Source: a virus. Taken from it: a stretch of DNA of 26,899 nt. The position numbers and the translations under genes are program-made. Below, piece after piece: positions 2,819 through 26,899 of this stretch (the first letter of the stretch is position 1; every line of letters begins with the position of its first letter). The stretch lies in IMG/VR virus record IMGVR_UViG_3300050821_016722, positions 1-26,899 of that record. One strand, given 5' to 3'. The notes under the pieces are model-generated. The model was not told where the DNA came from, ran no database searches, and saw only the letters and a list, made by a program, of their open reading frames with translations.

Positions 2819-3622
2819 CTAGTAGCCCGCCCCATAGTACGAACTGACCTTGCCGCCGTCGACCGCGACCCGCGTCAGACCGCACGTATCAGCGAACATG
2901 TTCTCATAGACCTGAGCGTCAGCGTAGCGCCGGGACGCCATATAACACAAAGACGCCGCTTTGAACTTGATCGCCTCGCGAAAGCCTTTCGGCACCGCCT
3001 CGGGGTCGCTGTCTAAATAGAGCGGGATCGGCAAGGCCTGGCAGTCGAGCTCGATCTCGCCATAGGTCGAAGGAACCGGAAACATCCATATCTCGCCCTG
3101 CGGCCCGTCGTTATAGACGCTCCACACGGCGGGATAGGTCGTGTTCAACACGGCGTAGGCCCGGCAATAGGCCTGAAAATCGTCCCACGGGATATAGTCA
3201 AGCGCGGGCCGGTCGACGCCGCCCCAGTTAACCGCCAGAGAGATCGAGTCGATCACGCAGTCGCAACCGGCATATTCCTGGCGAAGAAAGAGATTGAAGA
3301 ACCCTTCGTAAGGATAGCGCTCGACATTCGGGATCGTCTGGCAGGCGTTCAACTGGGCGCCGGTCACGGTCAGTTGGTTCGACAGCGGCGCAGGCGAACC
3401 GGGGATCATGCCGGGCTGCATCGCGCCGGGGATCGCCATGCCGGGCTGCGAGGACGCCCCGAACGCCGATTGGCCGGTGATCAGACGACGAACGCAAGGC
3501 GTACGCTTGGCAAGATTTCGCCGCGACTCATTGATCCATACGGTCATCTGGTTCTGCGACGTGAACGTGAAATTCAAGTCGTTGAGCAGCGCCGACGTGT
3601 CCCTGAGATACGTGCTGAGCAC
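2819..3622 (-). CDS. Head-tail adaptor/connector candidate
   Basis: 267 residues. Start GTG 3622 has AAGGAG about 11 nt upstream. The N-terminus (LRDTSALLNDLNFTFTSQNQM, then WINESRRNLAKRT) matches the helical opening common in podoviral head-tail adaptors (P22 gp4-like or T7 gp11-like), where a helix packs against the portal. Residues about 50-75 are a Gly/Pro/Met-rich linker; the remainder contains DYIPWDDFQAYCRAY and a C-terminal part rich in Tyr and Ala. It lies downstream of a terminator-like hairpin and upstream of the tail-hub candidate, the expected place for an adaptor. The stop is TAG, five codons ahead of an in-frame TGA. Family assignment is by pattern only. Confidence 0.55.
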   Translation of the reverse strand: MLSTYLRDTSALLNDLNFTFTSQNQMTVWINESRRNLAKRTPCVRRLITGQSAFGASSQPGMAIPGAMQPGMIPGSPAPLSNQLTVTGAQLNACQTIPNVERYPYEGFFNLFLRQEYAGCDCVIDSISLAVNWGGVDRPALDYIPWDDFQAYCRAYAVLNTTYPAVWSVYNDGPQGEIWMFPVPSTYGEIELDCQALPIPLYLDSDPEAVPKGFREAIKFKAASLCYMASRRYADAQVYENMFADTCGLTRVAVDGGKVSSYYGAGY

Positions 3623-3700: not shown

Positions 3701-4786
3701 TCAGATCGGGAGAATTTCGATCGTGTCGGTCGTCCCGCCCATGGTGAAAGTCAGCGACGCCGCGCCGGTCGGCGGCGTATTATAGGTCATCATCTGATCA
3801 GGCGCCGCGGTAAAAATGCCGCCGTCGAGAACCGTCTGGCCTGTCGCCGTGATCGCGCCGGCCGACAAAGCCGCGATGATCGACGCCGGGCGCGTCTTCA
3901 CCATGCCGGTCTGCGTATCAGGATTCGTATAGGCCGTCGAAGTCCCCGTGAACTTGATATCGAACGGCGAGACGAGAACAATGCCGGAGAAACCCGATCC
4001 GCCCGAAGTCACGGCATAGGCCGTGCAGGTCCAGCACATGATTGCGGTCGCCGCGGCCGAGGACCCGCCGCCACCCGCGAAAGTCAGGGTCGGAACGGCA
4101 GTCTGGCCGCCGATTCCGTGATCGACGCAAACGACGCCGGTCACGGTCTGAGCGCCGGTCAGGGTCGCCGTCGCAATAGCGCCCAAGCCGACGCCGATGC
4201 CGTTCAGCCCCTCGCGCGGATCGTTGAGCAGTTGGATCGTCGGCGGCGTGACATAGCCTGCGCCCTGGTTCGAAACCGTGATCATCGACACCGCGCCGGC
4301 CGAGATCGTGCAATAGCCCGACGCCGGGATGCCGCCGACAGGCGGATAGGAGAAGACGACGATCGGCGGGTAGGTGTAGTTCGAGCCGCCCGCGTTGACC
4401 GTGACGGACGTCGAAACGGCGCCGCCGACGATCGCGCGCCAGACCGAGGAACCGGCGCCCGCGGTAACGGTCGGCACGGATGTGTAACCCGTGCCGGCGG
4501 TTGTCACCAGTGCGCCGACGGCGCAGCCGGTCTGGTTGGCGACGCGGAAATTCTGGCCGTCCGAGATAACGACCATCGGATCGGCGTAAGGCGACGAGCC
4601 GCCGATATCGAGCCAGATGCCGGTGATCGGATCGCGCTGCTGGATAGCCGAATAACGCCCCGGCTTGATCCACCAGGCCTGCTCAGGCCCTGGGATCGTC
4701 CAGGTCCCGCCGGACGGAAGCTTGATCCGCTGCGACGTCAAGCCGCCAATGCTGGCCGAGAGACGAGGACTGGTGAGAAGACCCAT
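3701..4786 (-). CDS. Gly-rich virion protein, paralogue B
   Basis: 361 residues from ATG 4786, with GAGGAACAA just upstream. The protein is rich in Gly, Ala, Thr and Ser and carries repeats of the form GTGYTSVPTVTAG, GAGYVTPPTIQL and GSGFSG. It aligns by eye over most of its length with the neighbouring product of 4799-5893 (shared NQTGCAVGAL, SSxWRAIxGGAVST, GGGGSSAAATxIMCW and MVKTR/LVKTR segments), so the two arose by tandem duplication. The C-terminus reads LTFTMGGTTDTIEILPI. Position directly after the major capsid gene suggests a capsid decoration or minor head protein; this is inference. The stop is TGA, followed by the terminator at 3641-3674. Confidence 0.75.
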   Translation of the reverse strand: MGLLTSPRLSASIGGLTSQRIKLPSGGTWTIPGPEQAWWIKPGRYSAIQQRDPITGIWLDIGGSSPYADPMVVISDGQNFRVANQTGCAVGALVTTAGTGYTSVPTVTAGAGSSVWRAIVGGAVSTSVTVNAGGSNYTYPPIVVFSYPPVGGIPASGYCTISAGAVSMITVSNQGAGYVTPPTIQLLNDPREGLNGIGVGLGAIATATLTGAQTVTGVVCVDHGIGGQTAVPTLTFAGGGGSSAAATAIMCWTCTAYAVTSGGSGFSGIVLVSPFDIKFTGTSTAYTNPDTQTGMVKTRPASIIAALSAGAITATGQTVLDGGIFTAAPDQMMTYNTPPTGAASLTFTMGGTTDTIEILPI

Positions 4787-4798
4787 TTGTTCCTCGAA

Positions 4799-5893
4799 TC
4801 AGACGACCAGAATCTCGCTCACGTCGGTATAGCCGCCCATCGTGAAGGTGATCGTGGTCGTGGCGGTGATCAAGGCGCCGTTAGTCGTGACCAGGGGCGT
4901 CGGGACCGACGTATAGATGCCGCCGTCATAGAAGACCGCGCCGGACGAAGCCGGAATGGAGCCGCTGCCGGCCGGCATCAGGATATTGGCGAGACGAGTC
5001 TTGACGAGATTTCGCTGCGTCGTGACATTGGTATAGGCCGGGCTGGTCGTCGGGAAAGCGTCGAGCCCGGAAAGGAGCGACGGTCCCGTGAAGCCGGTGC
5101 CGCTCGTCGGCGTGAAACCGGTGATCGACCAGCACATGATCGTCGTCGCCGCGGCCGAGGAGCCGCCGCCGCCCGTGAAAGAGAGGGTCGGCAAGGCCGT
5201 CAGCGACGTGCCGTGGTCAATGCAGATCAGGCCCGTCAAGGTCTGCGAGCCGGTCAGCGAGCAGACCGCGGAAGCGCCGGTTCCGTAAGTAACGGCGGTC
5301 GGACCCGCGTTGAGCGTCTCGCGATAGTCGTTGATGAAGGTAACGGTCGGCGGCGACGTATAGCCGGCGCCCTGGTCGATGATCGTCACGGTCGAGACCG
5401 CGCCGCCCGACAGCGTGCAGGTCGCCGTCGCCTGGATGCCGCCCTGCGGCGGGGCTGAGAGAAGGACGATCGGCGCGTAAGTGTAGCCCGTACCGCCGTT
5501 CGAAACGGTGACGGTCGTCGAAACGGCGCCGCCGATAATGGCGCGCCACTGCGAGGACCCCGCCGAAGCGGCGACAGCTGGAACGGACGTGTAACCGGAG
5601 CCCGCATTGGTGATCAGCGCGCCGACAGCGCAGCCGGTCTGATTGGCGAGCCGCCAGTTGATCCCGTCCTGATTGACATAGTCGGTCGTCGCCGACACAT
5701 CGCCGGCGCCCGGCGTTCGCCAGGCCTGGAGGATCGGATCGAAGAGTTGCAGCGACGTATAACGGCCGGGCTTGCAGCCGAAAGCGCCACCGGTCGGGAG
5801 CTGATAGGTCTCGCCAGGCGCAAGCGCGACTGTGTTGGTGATGAGGCCGCGCCCCGAGGGCTGCTGACCGATACCGCCGAATCCACTAGCCAT
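4799..5893 (-). CDS. Gly-rich virion protein, paralogue A
   Basis: 364 residues from ATG 5893, with GAGGAG 8 nt upstream. It is the tandem paralogue of the product of 3701-4786, from which it is separated by only 12 nt. Gly-rich repeats (GSGYTSVPAVAAS, GTGYTYAPIVLL, GAGYTSPPTVTF) recur at roughly 40-50 residue intervals, suggesting a beta-rich fold with repeated turns. The N-terminus contains LAPGETYQLPTGGAFG, which also corresponds to the paralogue (IKLPSGGTWTIPGPEQ). Being next to the major capsid gene and in duplicate, it is best read as an abundant decoration or minor capsid protein. No enzymatic motif was seen. Confidence 0.75.
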   Translation of the reverse strand: MASGFGGIGQQPSGRGLITNTVALAPGETYQLPTGGAFGCKPGRYTSLQLFDPILQAWRTPGAGDVSATTDYVNQDGINWRLANQTGCAVGALITNAGSGYTSVPAVAASAGSSQWRAIIGGAVSTTVTVSNGGTGYTYAPIVLLSAPPQGGIQATATCTLSGGAVSTVTIIDQGAGYTSPPTVTFINDYRETLNAGPTAVTYGTGASAVCSLTGSQTLTGLICIDHGTSLTALPTLSFTGGGGSSAAATTIMCWSITGFTPTSGTGFTGPSLLSGLDAFPTTSPAYTNVTTQRNLVKTRLANILMPAGSGSIPASSGAVFYDGGIYTSVPTPLVTTNGALITATTTITFTMGGYTDVSEILVV

Positions 5894-5905: not shown

Positions 5906-6979
5906 TCAGAGGACCGCCGGATTTGTACCTGGAACAAGCGGCCATGCCGAACCGGTTATGCCCGTAACCTGAGCGCCGGACGACGGCTTGGCGCAGACGA
6001 GATCGGCGCAGGAAATCAGGACGCCGATGTCGCTGATCTGACCGATCGGAATCTGGCTCTCGAAACCCGAGAAGGTCATCGGCGCATATTCCGACATGTA
6101 GAGGCCGGTGTAGCGCGAATTGACGATGAAACAGGTCCCGAGCGGACAGAACGGATCGGGGAAAATCGGCGTATCAAGAACGCGGATCGCCCGGAAGCCG
6201 GCGTTGACGACATTGTCCTTGTCGTAGAGCGAACGCGGCGTCGTGGTGAACTGCTCGAGACTCATGAAATCGCTCATGAGCTGCGCCCAATTGGCCGGGT
6301 TCATGACGGCATAGTCAGGCGCTTCGCCGCCGGCCCCGGACTGGACGCGCGCCAGAATTTGGGCGGCGCCGACGCGCGTGGTCATCTGGGCGCCGGTGTT
6401 CGGAATCAACTGACCGGACCAGAACGAACCAGTCGAACGTGAGATGCCGCCGTAGGACGGAACGTTGGCGCCGTCGTCATAGGCCTGGGCGAGAGAATCC
6501 CAGGCCTGCGTGTTGGCGTAATTGTTGTTGTAGAGCGCCTGGGCGTAGGCCTGTTTGATGACCACTGCCGCGTCCGACATGACGGCGCGCAGCTTGGGGA
6601 TGATCACTTCGGACGACTGGACGATCGCCTCCATTCCGAAGAAGCCGATCGGCACCATGCCGAGCTTCAGCGAAAACTGAGCGTTCTGGATGGCGGTCTG
6701 GTCCGTCGGGATCGGAAAATCGCCGGCGAACGAACCCCAGTTGAACGTGACGAACGAAGAGCCCTGAACCGGAACGGTGATCTGCGAGACGCCGCCCCTG
6801 GCCGCCTTGGCGTTACCTAGAAACGCCGACAGTAAAGGATGGCTCTGGTACACCTGGACGTAAACTGACGGTATAACGGCCCTCCTGGTGAGAGCTGCGA
6901 GTTGCGCTCCGAGGGAGCCTGAAGGCGTAATGCCGCTTCCTGTGAGCGTAGTCACTGGCGACGTAGGATAGGCAGCCAT
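5906..6979 (-). CDS. Major capsid protein
   Basis: 357 residues from ATG 6979, with AGGGG 9 nt upstream. The sequence has the composition and layout of an HK97-fold coat protein without an N-terminal protease-cleaved delta domain. It opens with MAAYPTSPVTTLTGSG, then a mixed region with SVYVQVYQSHPLLSAFLG, a central helix (VVIKQAYAQALYNNN), and an A-domain-like region with the YAVMNPANWAQLM segment typical of tailed-phage coat proteins. The separate scaffold candidate directly upstream (6999-7622) supports this reading. It would form the icosahedral shell. Domain borders are inferred; the call rests on sequence style and gene order. Confidence 0.8.
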   Translation of the reverse strand: MAAYPTSPVTTLTGSGITPSGSLGAQLAALTRRAVIPSVYVQVYQSHPLLSAFLGNAKAARGGVSQITVPVQGSSFVTFNWGSFAGDFPIPTDQTAIQNAQFSLKLGMVPIGFFGMEAIVQSSEVIIPKLRAVMSDAAVVIKQAYAQALYNNNYANTQAWDSLAQAYDDGANVPSYGGISRSTGSFWSGQLIPNTGAQMTTRVGAAQILARVQSGAGGEAPDYAVMNPANWAQLMSDFMSLEQFTTTPRSLYDKDNVVNAGFRAIRVLDTPIFPDPFCPLGTCFIVNSRYTGLYMSEYAPMTFSGFESQIPIGQISDIGVLISCADLVCAKPSSGAQVTGITGSAWPLVPGTNPAVL

Positions 6980-16079: not shown

Positions 16080-16286
16080 TTATCGAGCCTTCTCCAAACA
16101 GCGCTCGACGAACTGCTCTATACCCTCGCGGGCGATATCGGTCGGCGTGCGCCGCAAATCCGCGGCCAACGCCCAGACCCGGTCCCGCAGTTCCTCGGAC
16201 ATCGGCACCGACATGGTGTGCCGCTTGGCGTCAGGCCGGCGATGATACTCGCGCTTGCGCGGCTCGGTTTCGATCGCCCGCGTCAC
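16080..16286 (-). CDS. Ribbon-helix-helix (Arc/CopG-like) protein
   Basis: 68 residues from GTG 16286, overlapping the upstream TGA (GTGA). A basic N-terminal arm (TRAIETEPRKREYHRRPDAK) precedes a beta strand and two helices (TMSVPMSEELRDRVWALAAD and RTPTDIAREGIEQFVERCL). This matches the ribbon-helix-helix DNA-binding fold. Such proteins bind DNA as dimers and usually repress their own or nearby promoters. It is coupled to the XRE-type regulator just upstream, so the two may form a small regulatory unit inside the late operon. Confidence 0.7.
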   Translation of the reverse strand: MTRAIETEPRKREYHRRPDAKRHTMSVPMSEELRDRVWALAADLRRTPTDIAREGIEQFVERCLEKAR

Positions 16287-20858: not shown

Positions 20859-21069
20859 TATCGACGACGGCGACATTAAAACCTGTCGTATCGTAGATAC
20901 GCTTCAAGAACTTCTGGCGCTCTCGCACATAGACCGCCAGATCCTCTTGACTGACCTCACCTTTCTTCGGAACGTCTGGACTCCACTCGGCCGACAAGCG
21001 TCTGTCTTTCCAAATCAATTCACAAACAAACCGCCCCTGTTTGAATTCATGACGCAACTCTTCCTGCAT
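20851..21069 (-). CDS. Small phage protein, in frame with upstream zinc protein across a TAG
   Basis: 72 residues from ATG 21069. The product (MQEELRHEFKQGRFVCELIW, then KDRRLSAEWSPDVPKKGEVS and YVRERQKFLKRIYDTTGFNV) is alpha/beta with a conserved-looking end. Its ATG lies 9 nt after the TAG (21081-21079) of the zinc protein and in the same frame, so reading TAG as sense would join them into one product of about 155 residues. A possible ribosome-binding site (AGGAG) overlaps the upstream TAG. Its own stop is TAG, seven sense codons ahead of TGA. Confidence 0.6.
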   Translation of the reverse strand: MQEELRHEFKQGRFVCELIWKDRRLSAEWSPDVPKKGEVSQEDLAVYVRERQKFLKRIYDTTGFNVAVVDII

Positions 21070-21078
21070 GAATCGCTC

Positions 21079-21318
21079 CTAATCGAAAACACTGACCATT
21101 TTCTTAGCTCGACGCACGTCCACGCATTTCCGACAACGGCGCAGAGGTTCGAATTTCTTATCCTCCGCGCCTCGGGTCATGACCTCGGTTTCTACGCCGC
21201 AATCACAGCAAACCGTTGACCACGCAGCCAGCATGATCGTCTCCCCTTTCCGATTAACGTAAGGCCGTTCACCGACCAGTTCGTAAATTTGATTTTTATA
21301 CGCACGGCGCGTCGTCAT
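21079..21318 (-). CDS. Small zinc-knuckle protein
   Basis: 79 residues from ATG 21318, with AGGGAACGTT upstream. C37-x2-C40 (CCDC) and C62-x2-C65 (CRKC) form a probable zinc ribbon; the N-terminus reads MTTRRAYKNQIYELVGERPY. Proteins of this type are common in phages as nucleic-acid or protein adaptors. It lies next to the iteron array, so a role in origin control is possible but unproven. It ends in TAG directly ahead of the in-frame start at 21069. Confidence 0.65.
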   Translation of the reverse strand: MTTRRAYKNQIYELVGERPYVNRKGETIMLAAWSTVCCDCGVETEVMTRGAEDKKFEPLRRCRKCVDVRRAKKMVSVFD

Positions 21319-21376
21319 AACGTTCCCTATAGATATGGATTGCGCTATCGTCAAAAATAACGCCCGTCAACTAGAA

Positions 21377-21523
21377 TCTGCGCGCACGGGTCTGCGCGCA
21401 TGGTCTGCGTGCATTCCACTCGCTCCCTCTCCTCCTCTCTAGAGGGAGGAGGGGATGCACGCAGTGCGAGCAGAAATTGATGCGCGCAGATGCAAGCAGA
21501 ATGCGCGCAGACATGCGAGCAGA
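21377..21523. other. Putative origin of replication: nine iterons around a hairpin
   Basis: Consensus ATGCRNGCAGA. Left array, inverted: 21377-21387, 21391-21401, 21404-21414. Right array, direct: 21455-21465, 21464-21474, 21480-21490, 21490-21500, 21501-21511, 21513-21523. Between them a polypyrimidine/polypurine hairpin (CCTCCTCTCTAGAGGGAGGA near 21431-21450) is bounded by GTGCAT and ATGCAC. The region from 21355 to 21531 has no gene. It abuts the 3' end of the primase-helicase gene. Confidence 0.75.
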
Positions 21524-21531
21524 CGCTTAAC

Positions 21532-23718
21532 TCAGTCAAAAACAGTTTCATCGACGGCCTCAAGCATCTCCCATTCGCGGTAATTCTTGACGTAGCGCAC
21601 GACGCGGACACGCTTGGCGGCGAGCGCCGTGTCCAGGGCGCGCTGGAACTGCGCCTTGGTCACGCCTTCGCCGCTCTCATGCTCGGAGCAGGCCTTCGGG
21701 GCGAAGTTGTTGGCTTTCGGCTTGGAGCTCAGCGGACGGTCCTCGAGAGCGAACTGCCGGATCATCTCGACCAGCTTGTCGACGACCTCACGCGGCTGAA
21801 GGGGTCGCGGCGGGCCAGAATTGACCGCTGATCCGCCTCGCCTGACAAACCGGCCCTCAGACCACTTCAGAAGGACCTCGCCGCCTGTGGGCGATCTATT
21901 GGCTTTCTTGACGATCAGCCGCCGCATGAGTGGATCGATCTCCCGTTTCGGTTCGTCCGGCCGTCCCGACGCCATGATCCGTTCGAGTAGGAGTCGCGAG
22001 CGCACCGAATTGCTCCAGGCGACATTGCCGCTTGTCCCGGTTCCGCTGGTCATGCCGTAGACGGAAGGGTGCTGCAGGATCACCACGGCGGGCCCCCAGC
22101 GTAAAGCCATGCCCCGCCATAGGGAAATGAACGCCCGGACGTGGATTTTCTTGATTTCGTCACCACCGAATATGTCGGCTAGGTTGTCCAGGATCACCAG
22201 CGCCGGCCGGGTCCTCGCGACATAGGCTTCGAGCCGTTTGAAGAGAGGCGTTGCTTCGATCAGATCGCCTTTCTTGGTCGCCGCCGCCATCACCGCGTCC
22301 TGGTCCGCGAGCTGCGCGATCGTCAGGTCCTCGAGCGCCAGGACGTCGACGCCCATTGCCGCCAGGCGCCGGCGCTGCTCTTTCGTCTCATCCTCCGCCG
22401 CGACGTAAAGGACCTTGCCGCGCGCCGTCGTCATGCCGAGCCATTCGCCGGTCAAGGCCACCGCGACGGACAATTGCAGCGCCAGGATCGATTTTCCCGT
22501 CCCGCCGTCGCCCCCCAGGATCGAGACCTGCGCCGCTGGGATCATGTCCTTGACGATCCACGGCTGGGGATCGAGCGGGATGTGAACAAGATCCGGCGCG
22601 GCGATGAGATGAAGCGCGCTGTCGTCCAGGACGGCCGGTTTCTGGCCCGCCTCGCCCCTTTCCGGCGCCGCTTCTATGATCTCTTCGAAGAACTGCGCCA
22701 CCATCGGCGATATGAACCGCCCTCCTGACCGCTTCGCCGCCTCGCTATAGATGCGTTGCGCGCCGGCCCGAAACGGCCCGTTGAAGTCCCAGGTCTGGCG
22801 CACATAGTCAGGATCGTTGGTCTCGCCGTTCGCCCCCGTCCATCGCTCCGAGAATTCGAGCGCGATCTCCAGTCCCCGTTCTGGGTCTTCAACCGTCGCC
22901 GCCTTGAGCGCGAAGATGAGGTTCGCCCAGCCTGCGCGGTCCTCGTAGTCGTTCGGGATATGGCGCATCGCCTCGGCGATCTGGTCGATGTCGCCGAGGA
23001 GGTCTTCTTGCCGCGGCATTTCGCCGTTGATGAAGCCTCGCGACGTTTGGCCTTGCGGAAGCGCCTCGGCGAGGTCCTTGGCCAGGCCATCGGCTTCCGC
23101 CGGGCTGATCAGCGGCAGCGCGTCGAACCGCACGAGCGGGCGATCCCAGACATAAGCCGATCCGCTCGGATGCGTTCCCATCGCCACGAATTGCTTGGCG
23201 GTCAGGAATTCGATCTGTCCGCCGGCGAACTGGACGTTCGGATGCGAATAGGCGCCTTTGACCCGGATCGGGAAGAGCGCCTTCGGCCGCAGGCCGGTCC
23301 GTTTTGGGCCAATCCCCGTGCGCCGGACGATGATCGCCTCGATGCGCTCGGCGAGGTCCTTGTCGAGGCAGTCCGCGTCGAGCCCCAGCAAAGTTTCGTC
23401 GCGAGCTGGATCATGGCCGCACAATATGCCGGCGTTGGCGCCCATCACGCCCCATTCTTTCAGGTTTTCCGGAGTCGGGGTTCGGCTGTTCCAGCCGTCG
23501 AGCAATGTCCAGTGCCCGTTCGACTTGATCCCCGGCGCTTTGCCGCGGTCGTCCTTGATCTTGTATCGCTCGGCGAGCCAGGCGTCGACCGGGGCGTTCG
23601 GCGGAATGACCGGGACGAGCCGGGCCCCGTAGCCCAATCCGTCCAGGATATCGAAATAAGTCCTTGTGACAGGCCCTGGCGGTTCTTGCGCAGCCCCCGC
23701 GCTTCCTGTATTTGTCAT
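21532..23718 (-). CDS. Primase-polymerase fused to RepA-like AAA helicase
   Basis: 728 residues from ATG 23718; ATG 23772 is an alternative and the frame is open to 24042. The N-terminal domain (about 20-205) is a bifunctional primase-polymerase: GLDADCLD (112-119) supplies the metal-binding Asp pair and FVAMGTHPSG (177-186) the His motif. Residues about 240-330 resemble a primase C-terminal domain (IAEAMRHIPNDYEDRAGWAN). Residues about 385-600 are a RepA/AAA_25 ATPase with Walker A GGDGGTGKS (402-410), Walker B ALVILDNLADIF (506-517) and ILQHPS (547-552). It would prime and unwind at the iteron array next to its 3' end. Confidence 0.88.
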   Translation of the reverse strand: MTNTGSAGAAQEPPGPVTRTYFDILDGLGYGARLVPVIPPNAPVDAWLAERYKIKDDRGKAPGIKSNGHWTLLDGWNSRTPTPENLKEWGVMGANAGILCGHDPARDETLLGLDADCLDKDLAERIEAIIVRRTGIGPKRTGLRPKALFPIRVKGAYSHPNVQFAGGQIEFLTAKQFVAMGTHPSGSAYVWDRPLVRFDALPLISPAEADGLAKDLAEALPQGQTSRGFINGEMPRQEDLLGDIDQIAEAMRHIPNDYEDRAGWANLIFALKAATVEDPERGLEIALEFSERWTGANGETNDPDYVRQTWDFNGPFRAGAQRIYSEAAKRSGGRFISPMVAQFFEEIIEAAPERGEAGQKPAVLDDSALHLIAAPDLVHIPLDPQPWIVKDMIPAAQVSILGGDGGTGKSILALQLSVAVALTGEWLGMTTARGKVLYVAAEDETKEQRRRLAAMGVDVLALEDLTIAQLADQDAVMAAATKKGDLIEATPLFKRLEAYVARTRPALVILDNLADIFGGDEIKKIHVRAFISLWRGMALRWGPAVVILQHPSVYGMTSGTGTSGNVAWSNSVRSRLLLERIMASGRPDEPKREIDPLMRRLIVKKANRSPTGGEVLLKWSEGRFVRRGGSAVNSGPPRPLQPREVVDKLVEMIRQFALEDRPLSSKPKANNFAPKACSEHESGEGVTKAQFQRALDTALAAKRVRVVRYVKNYREWEMLEAVDETVFD

Positions 23719-23824
23719 GCGTCCTGCCTGCCCCGGTGGGATAACTTGCCGATTGGGCGCGAACGGTTTCATCCGCCGTTCGCGCCTTCGGGTCGAGGAC
23801 GATGCGCCCGCCGCTCTTTCGCGG

Positions 23825-24784
23825 TCAATCCCGTAAATTAGAAATTTCGTTATGCTGGGGTTCGCCGTGCGCGTAATCATGGAGGATAACGCCACGTTCT
23901 CTTGATCCAACCAAATGAGCGCGGACCCAATACGGTTTATCGTTAAGATGTCGAATGTGACCGCGGCGCCAATGAAGACGAGGCGTTGCGTGAGAGCCGC
24001 CGAGACGAGAATCACTCCAGGACTTATCCAGGCGAACCACAAAATATTGGATTGAGGCAGACGGAAATTTATCGGGATTCTTGCGGGAACGTGCTGAGAG
24101 AATCTCCGTAATAGCGTACTTCGTGTTCATGACGGCCAAGTAGTAATAGATTTCATCGATATTAGGCTTCGTGGTGGAGATAATCGGAGGACGATTATCA
24201 CGAGGGGTAAAACAAATCGCTTTCATTTCTAGTTTCTTATCGTTTCGACGCAACAATGAGCACACATCAAAAAGATTATCCTCGTCAGAATGAAAGTATT
24301 GGGAGACAAACACACACTCTTCGAACGGTAGTTCTATGATACCTTTCTCTACAAGGTCCCTGCCAAAGTCCGCCATATCAGAATTTGTTCCAGTAGGGAT
24401 TGCTCGGAAATCAAACCAATGAGCTTCTCGCCAATCGCGATACCCTGCGTCGCGTTGTTCTGGCGACAATTCACGCAGTTTGACTTGCCAATCTATTCCT
24501 TCTCTAGCCCGACTACGTAAATGAAGAATGGATGTATCAGGGCTATCTTGCGCGACTGGCCAGAGGTTATGGCGAAGGCCAAGGAGCGCCCAATTAAGCG
24601 CGTCACAATAGGCGCGGTTATCGGCAAGTAGTTTGTTTAGACGCGATTCTTCTAAGGCTAATTCCTTGCGGCGCTCTTGCAAAAATAGAGGAGGCCGGAG
24701 TGATCGGCGCAATGTCGGCGAGAATGCTCCCACGAAAGACGTAGAAGAAAGAAGCTCGTCCGGTTTAATTCTCTCGTCTTTCAC
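23825..24784 (-). CDS. AT-richer cargo protein of unknown function
   Basis: 319 residues from GTG 24784. The gene is visibly poorer in GC than its neighbours and lies where small regulators would otherwise follow the helicase, suggesting recent transfer. The N-terminal half is helical and charged (FLQERRKELALEESRLNKLL). The central part has FVSQYFHSDEDNLFDVCSLL and Asp/Arg-rich loops. The C-terminus carries PRLHWRRGHIRHLNDKPYWV followed by RAHLVG and GVILHDYAHG. I recall similar RxHWRRGHxRRL...WVRPHLVG endings in proteins of prophages and mobile elements. Their role is not established; anti-phage defence or exclusion is conceivable. It sits beside the control region of the primase gene. Confidence 0.7.
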   Translation of the reverse strand: MKDERIKPDELLSSTSFVGAFSPTLRRSLRPPLFLQERRKELALEESRLNKLLADNRAYCDALNWALLGLRHNLWPVAQDSPDTSILHLRSRAREGIDWQVKLRELSPEQRDAGYRDWREAHWFDFRAIPTGTNSDMADFGRDLVEKGIIELPFEECVFVSQYFHSDEDNLFDVCSLLRRNDKKLEMKAICFTPRDNRPPIISTTKPNIDEIYYYLAVMNTKYAITEILSARSRKNPDKFPSASIQYFVVRLDKSWSDSRLGGSHATPRLHWRRGHIRHLNDKPYWVRAHLVGSRERGVILHDYAHGEPQHNEISNLRD

Positions 24785-25097: not shown

Positions 25098-25315
25098 GGG
25101 TCGCTCGTTCTGATCGGGGCCAGGGTTACGGGAATCTTCTTCGTGCGGCGCGACATCTGCGCCGAGCGCACACCCTTGTTCGAACCGGGGCCTTTCTTCA
25201 CCAGCATCTTGCTCAGAAGATTGGTCTTCGGCTCTTTGCGGATGAAAGTATTTCGGTTGTTTCCTGTGCGATTTCGATGAGCAGCTTTACTGTTCCTGTC
25301 GTTGAGGCCGCTCAT
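25094..25315 (-). CDS. Small basic protein
   Basis: 73 residues from ATG 25315, with GGAG 11 nt upstream and ATGA overlap to the upstream stop. The sequence (MSGLNDRNSKAAHRNRTGNN, then RNTFIRKEPKTNLLSKMLVK and RSAQMSRRTKKIPVTLAPIR) is very rich in Lys, Arg and Asn and is probably disordered with nucleic-acid affinity. No family recognised. It forms a row of coupled small genes (25859 to 24843). Confidence 0.55.
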   Translation of the reverse strand: MSGLNDRNSKAAHRNRTGNNRNTFIRKEPKTNLLSKMLVKKGPGSNKGVRSAQMSRRTKKIPVTLAPIRTSDP

Positions 25316-25617
25316 CCTGTGTGGCTCCTGTAGGCGATGCAATTCGAGCACAGCTTCGACGGGGGTTCGCGCGGGTTCTTGCCGCAGCTCTCGCAAGGCT
25401 CCGGGCCTTCGCACAGAACCTCAGGCCGCGGCGGTTCGACGCCGAAGTAGCGTCCGAGCGCCGCGCATAAGACTTCCGACCGCGAGGTCCCTTCGACGCC
25501 GCGCTTCAGGGCTTCCTTGACCAATTCGTCGATCTTGCGCATCAGCACATGCGGGATGCGAATGCCGACCTGTTCGGAGCGCATGTTGACGCGATTGGTT
25601 CCAACCGAATTGGTCAT
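25312..25617 (-). CDS. Ribbon-helix-helix protein with C-terminal zinc finger
   Basis: 101 residues from ATG 25617, overlapping the upstream TGA. Residues 15-58 form a probable ribbon-helix-helix unit (EQVGIRIPHVLMRKIDELVK, then GTSRSEVLCAALGRYFGV). Residues 75-93 carry C75-x2-C78 and C90-x2-C93 (CESCGKNP...KLCSNC), a zinc knuckle. The combination points to a DNA-binding regulator that might act on the nearby GTGT-N-ACAC operators, but this link is inference. Confidence 0.7.
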   Translation of the reverse strand: MTNSVGTNRVNMRSEQVGIRIPHVLMRKIDELVKEALKRGVEGTSRSEVLCAALGRYFGVEPPRPEVLCEGPEPCESCGKNPREPPSKLCSNCIAYRSHTG

Positions 25618-26446: not shown

Positions 26447-26899
26447 ACGACGAGGTCGACGTCGACCCGGCGACCGCCGCCGAGGTCAAACGGCTCTGGG
26501 ATTGGTGCATGGAGACGCCGGCGCCTGATCCGTCCCTTGACGCGAGCTACGTCTGCTACAATCTCCGCGGCTTCGCGCTGTCCTTCGACTTCCCCTATTG
26601 GCTCGTCGCGGCCGAGATGCGGCGCCGGCGGCTCGGCGGCAAGGCCCCGCTCAAGGTCGGCTTCTGGGCCGGCGAGGACGGCGAAGCGGGCCTCAGCCTC
26701 GCCTATCGCCACCGCATGCTGAACAACGTCATCCGCCCGATGCTGCGGCTGATCAGCGCGATCGAGGATCCCAAAGCCGTGCGCGGCTGGGCCGAATCGA
26801 TCGTCACGTCGAAATCGATCGTCGAGGCCTACGCCGCCGGCGAACATGTCCCCTTGCTGTACGCGCCTTATTCGATCGCGCACGAGTTCTTCAAGCCGC
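26443..26899 (+). CDS. Phage protein of unknown function, 3' end outside window
   Basis: 152 codons are visible from ATG 26443, which overlaps the upstream TGA; the gene continues past the right edge. The product opens MNDEVDVDPATAAEVKRLWD, then YNLRGFALSFDFPYWLVAAE, GKAPLKVGFWAGEDGEAGLS and LAYRHRMLNNVIRPMLRLIS. It reads as a soluble alpha/beta enzyme-like protein, but the part seen lacks a motif that I can name. It belongs to the coupled rightward operon that begins at 25944. Confidence 0.7.
   Translation, partial: MNDEVDVDPATAAEVKRLWDWCMETPAPDPSLDASYVCYNLRGFALSFDFPYWLVAAEMRRRRLGGKAPLKVGFWAGEDGEAGLSLAYRHRMLNNVIRPMLRLISAIEDPKAVRGWAESIVTSKSIVEAYAAGEHVPLLYAPYSIAHEFFKP

Follow-up and report, generated by a model that had tools for sequence, protein, structure and literature searches.

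What is the purpose of the cluster of short repeats in the gap behind the primase-helicase gene of this virus? The window, by which we mean the whole 26,899-base stretch of DNA analyzed here, is a virus record that is probably a fragment. The gap has some of the elements by which iteron origins are recognized: several short direct repeats, a noncoding stretch and an adjoining gene for a likely initiator. On the strength of sequence comparison, a predicted structure and analogy with known replicons, we consider it highly probable that the array is a phage iteron origin and that the helicase encoded just before it recognizes the repeats through its C-terminal domain.

A scan of the whole window with the 11-bp pattern ATGCRNGCAGA returned six exact copies and three with one mismatch, and all nine lie within 21377-21523 (Table 1). 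The initial annotation had counted nine 11-bp copies, three inverted and six direct, and this count is confirmed once the mismatch in three of the nine is allowed for. Its remark that some copies overlap by a base is correct for 21480/21490, whereas the copies at 21455 and 21464 overlap by two. All eight copies of the core TGCNNGCAGA in the 26,899 bases fall inside the same 147 bp; 100 shuffles of the window contain 1.0 on average and never more than 4. When up to two mismatches are allowed, the matches to ATGCRNGCAGA elsewhere in the window are scattered and the total is 38, versus a shuffle mean of 54. This total is below chance, so loose matching is meaningless and the clustering carries the signal.

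Table 1 Features of the array and its surroundings in the window (positions in bases).
Feature	Position	Strand	Remarks
Left array, three iterons	21377-21387 (1 mismatch), 21391-21401, 21404-21414	-	Spacing 13-14 bp
Central polypurine/polypyrimidine hairpin CCCTCTCCTCCTCTCTAGAGGGAGGAGGGG	21417..21466		Between the opposed arrays; found by inverted-repeat search
Right array, six iterons	21455..21523	+	Spacing 9-16 bp
Right-array iterons 1-3	21455-21465 (1 mismatch), 21464-21474 (1 mismatch), 21480-21490	+	
Right-array iterons 4-6	21490-21500, 21501-21511, 21513-21523	+	
Prim-Pol/PriCT_2/RepA-type helicase/winged-helix protein, proposed initiator	21532..24042	-	Longest ORF, 836 aa
Prim-Pol domain, residues 143-309	23116..23616	-	Weak Pfam match, 22.0 vs cut-off 22.8 bits
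Helicase ATPase domain AAA_25, residues 489-660	22063..22578	-	RSF1010 RepA is the nearest relative of solved structure
C-terminal winged-helix domain, residues 746-830, proposed iteron reader	21553..21807	-	Predicted structure; tracks array sequence
Next gene, small Cys-containing protein	21079..21318	-	Homologs come after the array in L050 and L051

The GGA/TCC hairpin that had been noted between the opposed arrays is borne out by inverted repeats, with outer arms (21417-21440/21443-21466) that are 71% complementary and inner arms (21426-21435/21445-21454) that are 90% complementary, and by the fold of the array region as single-stranded DNA (z -5.7). The ORF limits also uphold the placement of the array in a noncoding gap beside the primase-helicase gene, about 8 bp from the end of that gene at 21532 and about 60 bp from the start (~21318) of the next gene on the same strand. 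An AT-rich melting region is not striking in the window; by eye, an AT-rich stretch flanks the array in the related records L050 and L051. There, TATAATAACAAT...TTGTTATAAT lies between the array and the next gene (L050:3900-3945, L051:4010-4035) and may be a melting region or a promoter.

The window also carries features away from the array. An Rfam scan of the window returned only two tRNAs (10383-10453 and 10860-10933, both on the - strand), which sit beside a portal-like gene (8509-10278) that is encoded on the + strand, opposite to its neighbors. Neighboring structural-type ORFs on the - strand (1-2478, 3701-4786 and 4799-5893) share, by eye, 11-residue-like repeats, as if by tandem duplication. 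The first 70 residues of a small ORF (14536-15183, - strand) resemble, again by eye, a DnaJ-like J-domain, and the PHROGs that match this part have no known function.

The true start of the primase-helicase gene is probably the ATG near 23772 (residue 91), since the first ~90-125 residues are modeled with low confidence and are without counterparts in relatives. Domain matches of the 836-aa ORF include Prim-Pol (E 2.5e-4, just below the cut-off), PriCT_2 (E 8e-5, above it) and AAA_25 (E 2e-34); the Prim-Pol domain scores above the cut-off in the relatives L062 and L063. A PDB profile search with four homologs identified RSF1010 RepA (1g8y, E 1.5e-13), and RepA structures were also the best Foldseek matches of the AlphaFold model (TM 0.72-0.80 on the target, 0.76-0.80 for the two best). 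The model predicts a helix-helix-helix-hairpin arrangement for the C-terminal domain. Folded alone, this domain reaches a mean pLDDT of 77 and aligns with a winged-helix-DNA complex (best Z 9.8, 71 residues, 1.9 Å) and with the N-terminal domain of DnaD (Z 8.1, 76 residues, 2.4 Å). Its Foldseek E-values are weak (best 0.09), as is expected of a small, common fold. The winged helices of P4 alpha, RepC and pRN1 are absent among the matches listed, which is not evidence against kinship. We predict from the model that the C-terminal domain of the window helicase is a winged helix.

Relatives of the locus were gathered by several searches. The window helicase searched directly against viral contigs gave no match, and neither did megablast against phages. 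The terminase identified 25 related viral contigs, three of which (L049, L050 and L051) carry the helicase. A search with a helicase alignment yielded 12 viral loci, three of them in the same records, and five loci in bacterial genomes, all alphaproteobacterial; further helicase loci came from a second place in one of those bacterial genomes and from 11 of 397 genomes of an order. A second whole-genome search, of 385 genomes, matched in 1; both genome counts include the center genome itself. Plasmid searches returned nine and eight records with partial matches. Five phage records, hand-picked among 54 that matched, were added. The final set comprises 33 distinct helicase loci, window included; L066 was left out of every 33-locus count because the sequence behind its gene is identical to that of L063. 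The window terminase is present in one of nine further helicase records, which means that the replication module is passed among phages whose packaging genes are unrelated.

The initial annotation held that iterons missing from close relatives would refute an origin. Taken literally they are missing, as the exact pattern occurs in 0 of the 25 terminase-related records, yet a different array occupies the same place. Directly behind the helicase stop, L049 has CTTCCAACCCC repeats and both L050 and L051 have opposed GATCGGCGCA repeats. Directly behind the helicase gene there are GGCGGAGAT repeats in the cultured Rhizobium phage RHph_N65, GGCGGAAGTA repeats in EBPR siphovirus 5 and AAGATGGCA/AAGTTGGCA repeats in Wolbachia phage WO.

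This position was assessed across the loci in a blind test of repeated 7-mers on both strands in 200-base windows, with a cut-off score of at least 40 at -350 to +300 of the stop. Near the helicase stop, 24 of the 33 loci reach this score, and none of 200 dinucleotide shuffles attains the observed value in those 24. Terminase stops, used as a control, reach it in 0 of 21 cases (21 of 25 were usable, the other four having fewer than 200 bases past the stop; the 21 include several near-identical sequences). The helicase stop region is the best repeat window of the entire stretch in 23 of the 33 loci, and the array of the 62.7-kb record G003 is its top repeat window, scoring 208 versus 54 for the next. 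The distance between successive copies peaks at 10, the next most frequent values being 11 and 12, and echoes appear at 21-23 and 33-34. The proposal of an iteron-type origin beside the primase-helicase is thereby well supported, as many phages have a short-period array in this position 3' of the same helicase, often together with a hairpin.

Some loci depart from this pattern. A stronger repeat is found away from the helicase stop in L053, L056 and L079, the array lies 616 bases before the stop in L067 and 662 after it in L088, and L083 and L087 have weaker arrays. The strongest repeats of L053 (300-560) and L056 (1930-2330) are long GGCCGTCGACTC-like 12-bp tandem repeats, ~4-6 kb before the helicase stop and probably coding. 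There is no array in the stretch at five of the 33 loci (L061, L065, L071, L073 and L089); among these, L061 has a D5_N helicase, and L065 and L089, whose helicase is of the AAA_25 type, are true negatives. In the Wolbachia phage WO protein a Toprim domain replaces Prim-Pol, and helicase-only ORFs also bear arrays in some loci (such as L081 and L082). The array thus goes with the helicase and its C-terminal domain, not with Prim-Pol.

Hairpins behind the helicase are frequent too. In the 400 bp 3' of the stop, 14 of the 33 loci have a C4..G4 hairpin (0.85 expected) and 15 a C3-TA-G3 hairpin (1.35 expected). The window is in neither group; its hairpin is of the looser GGA/TCC type, without the C4..G4 pattern. 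When the 220 bases past the stop are folded as DNA, 17 of the 33 loci reach a z of -2 or lower, versus 3 of 33 coding controls.

Because the window array sits between two genes of the same direction, and the stretch 21000-22000 contains one stem that, with its T-rich tail, resembles a terminator, it could instead be an operator or attenuator, where a phage regulator would bind the repeats and control the helicase operon or the next gene, with the hairpin ending transcription. However, the one terminator-like and one promoter-like site compare with 1.0 and 0.4 expected. RHph_N65 and phage WO have a convergent gene as the next one annotated, leaving no promoter to control there, and the array starts before the helicase stop in L055, L057 and L083 and lies inside the gene in L059 and L067. 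We regard an operator role as unlikely.

A scan of viral contigs with ATGCRNGCAGA matched 17 contigs. The stretch around the match was inspected in all 17 and ORFs in four (L007, L010, L021 and L022); many of the other matches appear by eye to be in-frame coding repeats, and those in L022 and L007 lie within or adjoin replication genes. A ATGCACGCAGA-like array in L022 (~3008-3047), very close to the window iterons, is situated inside a gene (L022:2486-3394) that matches the replication initiation family phrog_1408. Phage lambda O is comparable in that its repeat array lies inside the initiator gene. In L007, the stop of a Toprim/DUF5906 DNA primase gene (L007:6244-8403, - strand) is immediately followed by CCGCAGA repeats (6190-6240), so RepA-type helicase genes are not the only ones with an array downstream. 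The similar GCAGATGCACGCAGATG repeat in L022 could be taken as a sign of a neutral dispersed repeat or palindromic element that is functionless here. We give this idea hardly any credence, as arrays of mostly unrelated sequence occupy, in 24 of 33 loci, a set position 3' of a single gene family, the window has a single cluster and the L022 array itself lies in a replication-initiator gene. A DUF1376-type protein, which the initial annotation had named as a possible initiator, is not needed here, even though the look-alike array of L022 does sit inside an initiator gene.

Which part of the protein might read the repeats? At 26 loci we compared array 6-mer spectra, by Mantel tests, with how similar the C-terminal domains and the helicase cores are. 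This comparison left out L066, the array-less L061, L065, L071, L073 and L089, and L059 and L067, in which the array is inside the gene; L088 entered with its array at +600 to +900. With the core controlled for, arrays that are alike go with C-terminal domains that are alike (partial Mantel r 0.43, permutation p 0.0002); with the C-terminal domain controlled for, the same loci show no such link between array and core (r -0.06, p 0.82). L058 and L068, for example, have similar cores (0.73) and zero array words in common. The C-terminal coding end and the array adjoin, so the result could also arise by recombination without binding. The comparison hints that the origin site and its reading protein change together across phages, and together with the structural model it makes the C-terminal winged helix of the preceding helicase the likely reader of the iterons. 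The suggestion that the neighboring Prim-Pol acts as initiator is accordingly retained for the protein, through its winged helix, and dropped for the Prim-Pol part, as the array occurs without it.

The same comparison bears on two other readings. The R1 parC site consists of two arrays of 11-bp repeats bound by ParR. The 11-bp unit and the two arrays of the window, together with a weak RHH match (25312-25617) and an Arc-like match (16080-16286), could therefore suggest a partition site bound by an RHH or ParB-like protein. We consider this very improbable, given that no ParM/ParA-type motor gene is present among the subset of window ORFs whose proteins were scanned, that the array recurs with the helicase across unrelated phages and that its sequence tracks the helicase C-terminus. 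Alternatively, the array could be an iteron origin read by another protein, such as host DnaA/IHF or a separate phage initiator, with the helicase only recruited. RSF1010 binds its iterons through the separate RepC, and the pRN1 protein did not bind its downstream element specifically in vitro (both in the available text of PMC4234260). The arrays differ from one group of phages to the next, a change that a host factor would not keep up with, and they track the helicase C-terminal domain, which makes another reader rather unlikely.

For an origin read by the helicase itself, we propose the following sequence of events. The helicase gene product would use its C-terminal winged helix to bind the 11-bp repeats in double-stranded form, with the 10-12-bp spacing setting the iteron copies on about the same helix face. 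The opposed arrays could then load two helicase rings that face each other across the hairpin. The RepA-type motor would melt the DNA, and the hairpin would be exposed or extruded. Finally, the Prim-Pol domain of the same polypeptide may make the first primers, perhaps at the hairpin. We infer binding, ring loading, melting, priming and a replication start at the array; the ring-loading and priming steps are modeled on SaPI Rep, SCCmec Cch2, pRN1 and RSF1010, as far as the available accounts of these systems go.

Cumulative GC skew, suggested in the initial annotation as a check, has no minimum at the array in any of four records. The minimum is at 23734 in the window, 2.2 kb off the array, at 24294 in RHph_N65, whose array is at ~34.9 kb, and at 2.9 and 1.8 kb in G003 and G017, respectively, whose arrays are at ~17.7 kb. 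Skew is uninformative as an origin test here.

We speculate that proteins combining a primase (Prim-Pol or Toprim), an RSF1010-RepA-type motor and a winged helix in one polypeptide, with the origin just 3' of their own gene, might constitute a large and unreported replicon class. Its winged helix and array would have been replaced together repeatedly while the motor was kept, and the driver could be pressure against shared origins. This broader proposal is tentative, and we hold it to be possible but doubtful. Pressure of this kind could stem from incompatibility at superinfection or from origin-directed nucleases like Odn, which acts against PLE. The practical consequence of the origin reading would be a rule for finding origins in many phages and prophages whose replication is unstudied, namely to look just behind the RepA-type helicase gene; it covers the cultured Rhizobium phage and Wolbachia phage WO. 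The 26 natural pairs of winged helix and repeat compared here would let one read how a winged helix chooses its DNA site, and would allow testing whether phages are pushed to change their origins.

Among known systems, SaPI Rep and SCCmec Cch2 are helicases whose C-terminal domain binds iterons just downstream of their own gene (PMC7581432, available text). The window locus resembles them in its iterons directly downstream of the helicase gene, and the winged helix predicted at the helicase C-terminus may play the same part. The SaPI/Cch helicases belong to another family (Cch2 is D5-related), whereas the window helicase is a RecA-fold AAA_25 protein of RSF1010-RepA type with a fused Prim-Pol, and the window repeats are 11 bp long in contrast to the 5-nt AAGTG unit of Cch2 (PMC7581432, available text). 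The hosts of window-type loci, where known, are alphaproteobacteria, unlike those of SaPI/SCCmec.

Replication of pRN1 requires a 100-nt stem-loop that lies behind its Prim-Pol-helicase gene and is conserved in form though not in sequence (PMC4234260). The window shares with pRN1 and the proposed Bordetella BIP-1/BPP-1 origin the combination of Prim-Pol, helicase and C-terminal winged helix and an element directly 3' of the gene, and with pRN1 a large stem-loop in that place (window fold z -5.7). The accessible part of that paper reports no iteron origin, whereas an array is present in the window; for BIP-1 it describes a stem-loop behind the gene and mentions no repeats there (PMC4234260). 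We found opposed 10-bp GTTTGCCTC repeats in BIP-1 (L090, record 26571-26790), ~400-600 bp behind the Prim-Pol/D5 gene. The helicases also differ, being SF3 in pRN1 and D5_N/DUF5906 in BIP-1, and the window is without an SF3 helicase.

The iterons of RSF1010 are longer, at ~20 bp. RSF1010 oriV is otherwise similar in its RepA-type hexameric helicase, the closest solved relative of the window protein, in its iterons and in the hairpin in its origin, and the RSF1010 hairpins serve as priming sites (ssi) (PMC4234260, available text). RSF1010 uses the three proteins RepA, RepB' and RepC, whereas the window has primase and helicase fused in one ORF (PMC4234260). The primase-helicase alpha of phage P4, which binds short origin repeats through a C-terminal winged helix, can likewise be compared to the window protein (in part PMC4234260). 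Its primase is of the Toprim type, in contrast to the Prim-Pol of the window. The P4 ori is not known to lie directly 3' of alpha. In the PLE replicon, as described in the available text of PMC8263062, the initiator is conserved except for its DNA-binding domain, which varies together with the iteron origin, as we propose here; PLE differs in its RepA_N initiator, its three ~30-bp iterons and in being a satellite rather than a phage.

The available text of PMC9203015 mentions no origin at this place in Wolbachia phage WO, and the open-licence PMC literature, which does not extend to subscription papers, gives no account of arrays behind this helicase in these phages. An origin that adjoins its initiator is already known. 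As far as the open-licence literature shows, what is new is the combination of a RepA-type helicase, a fused primase and their own 3' array in many phages.
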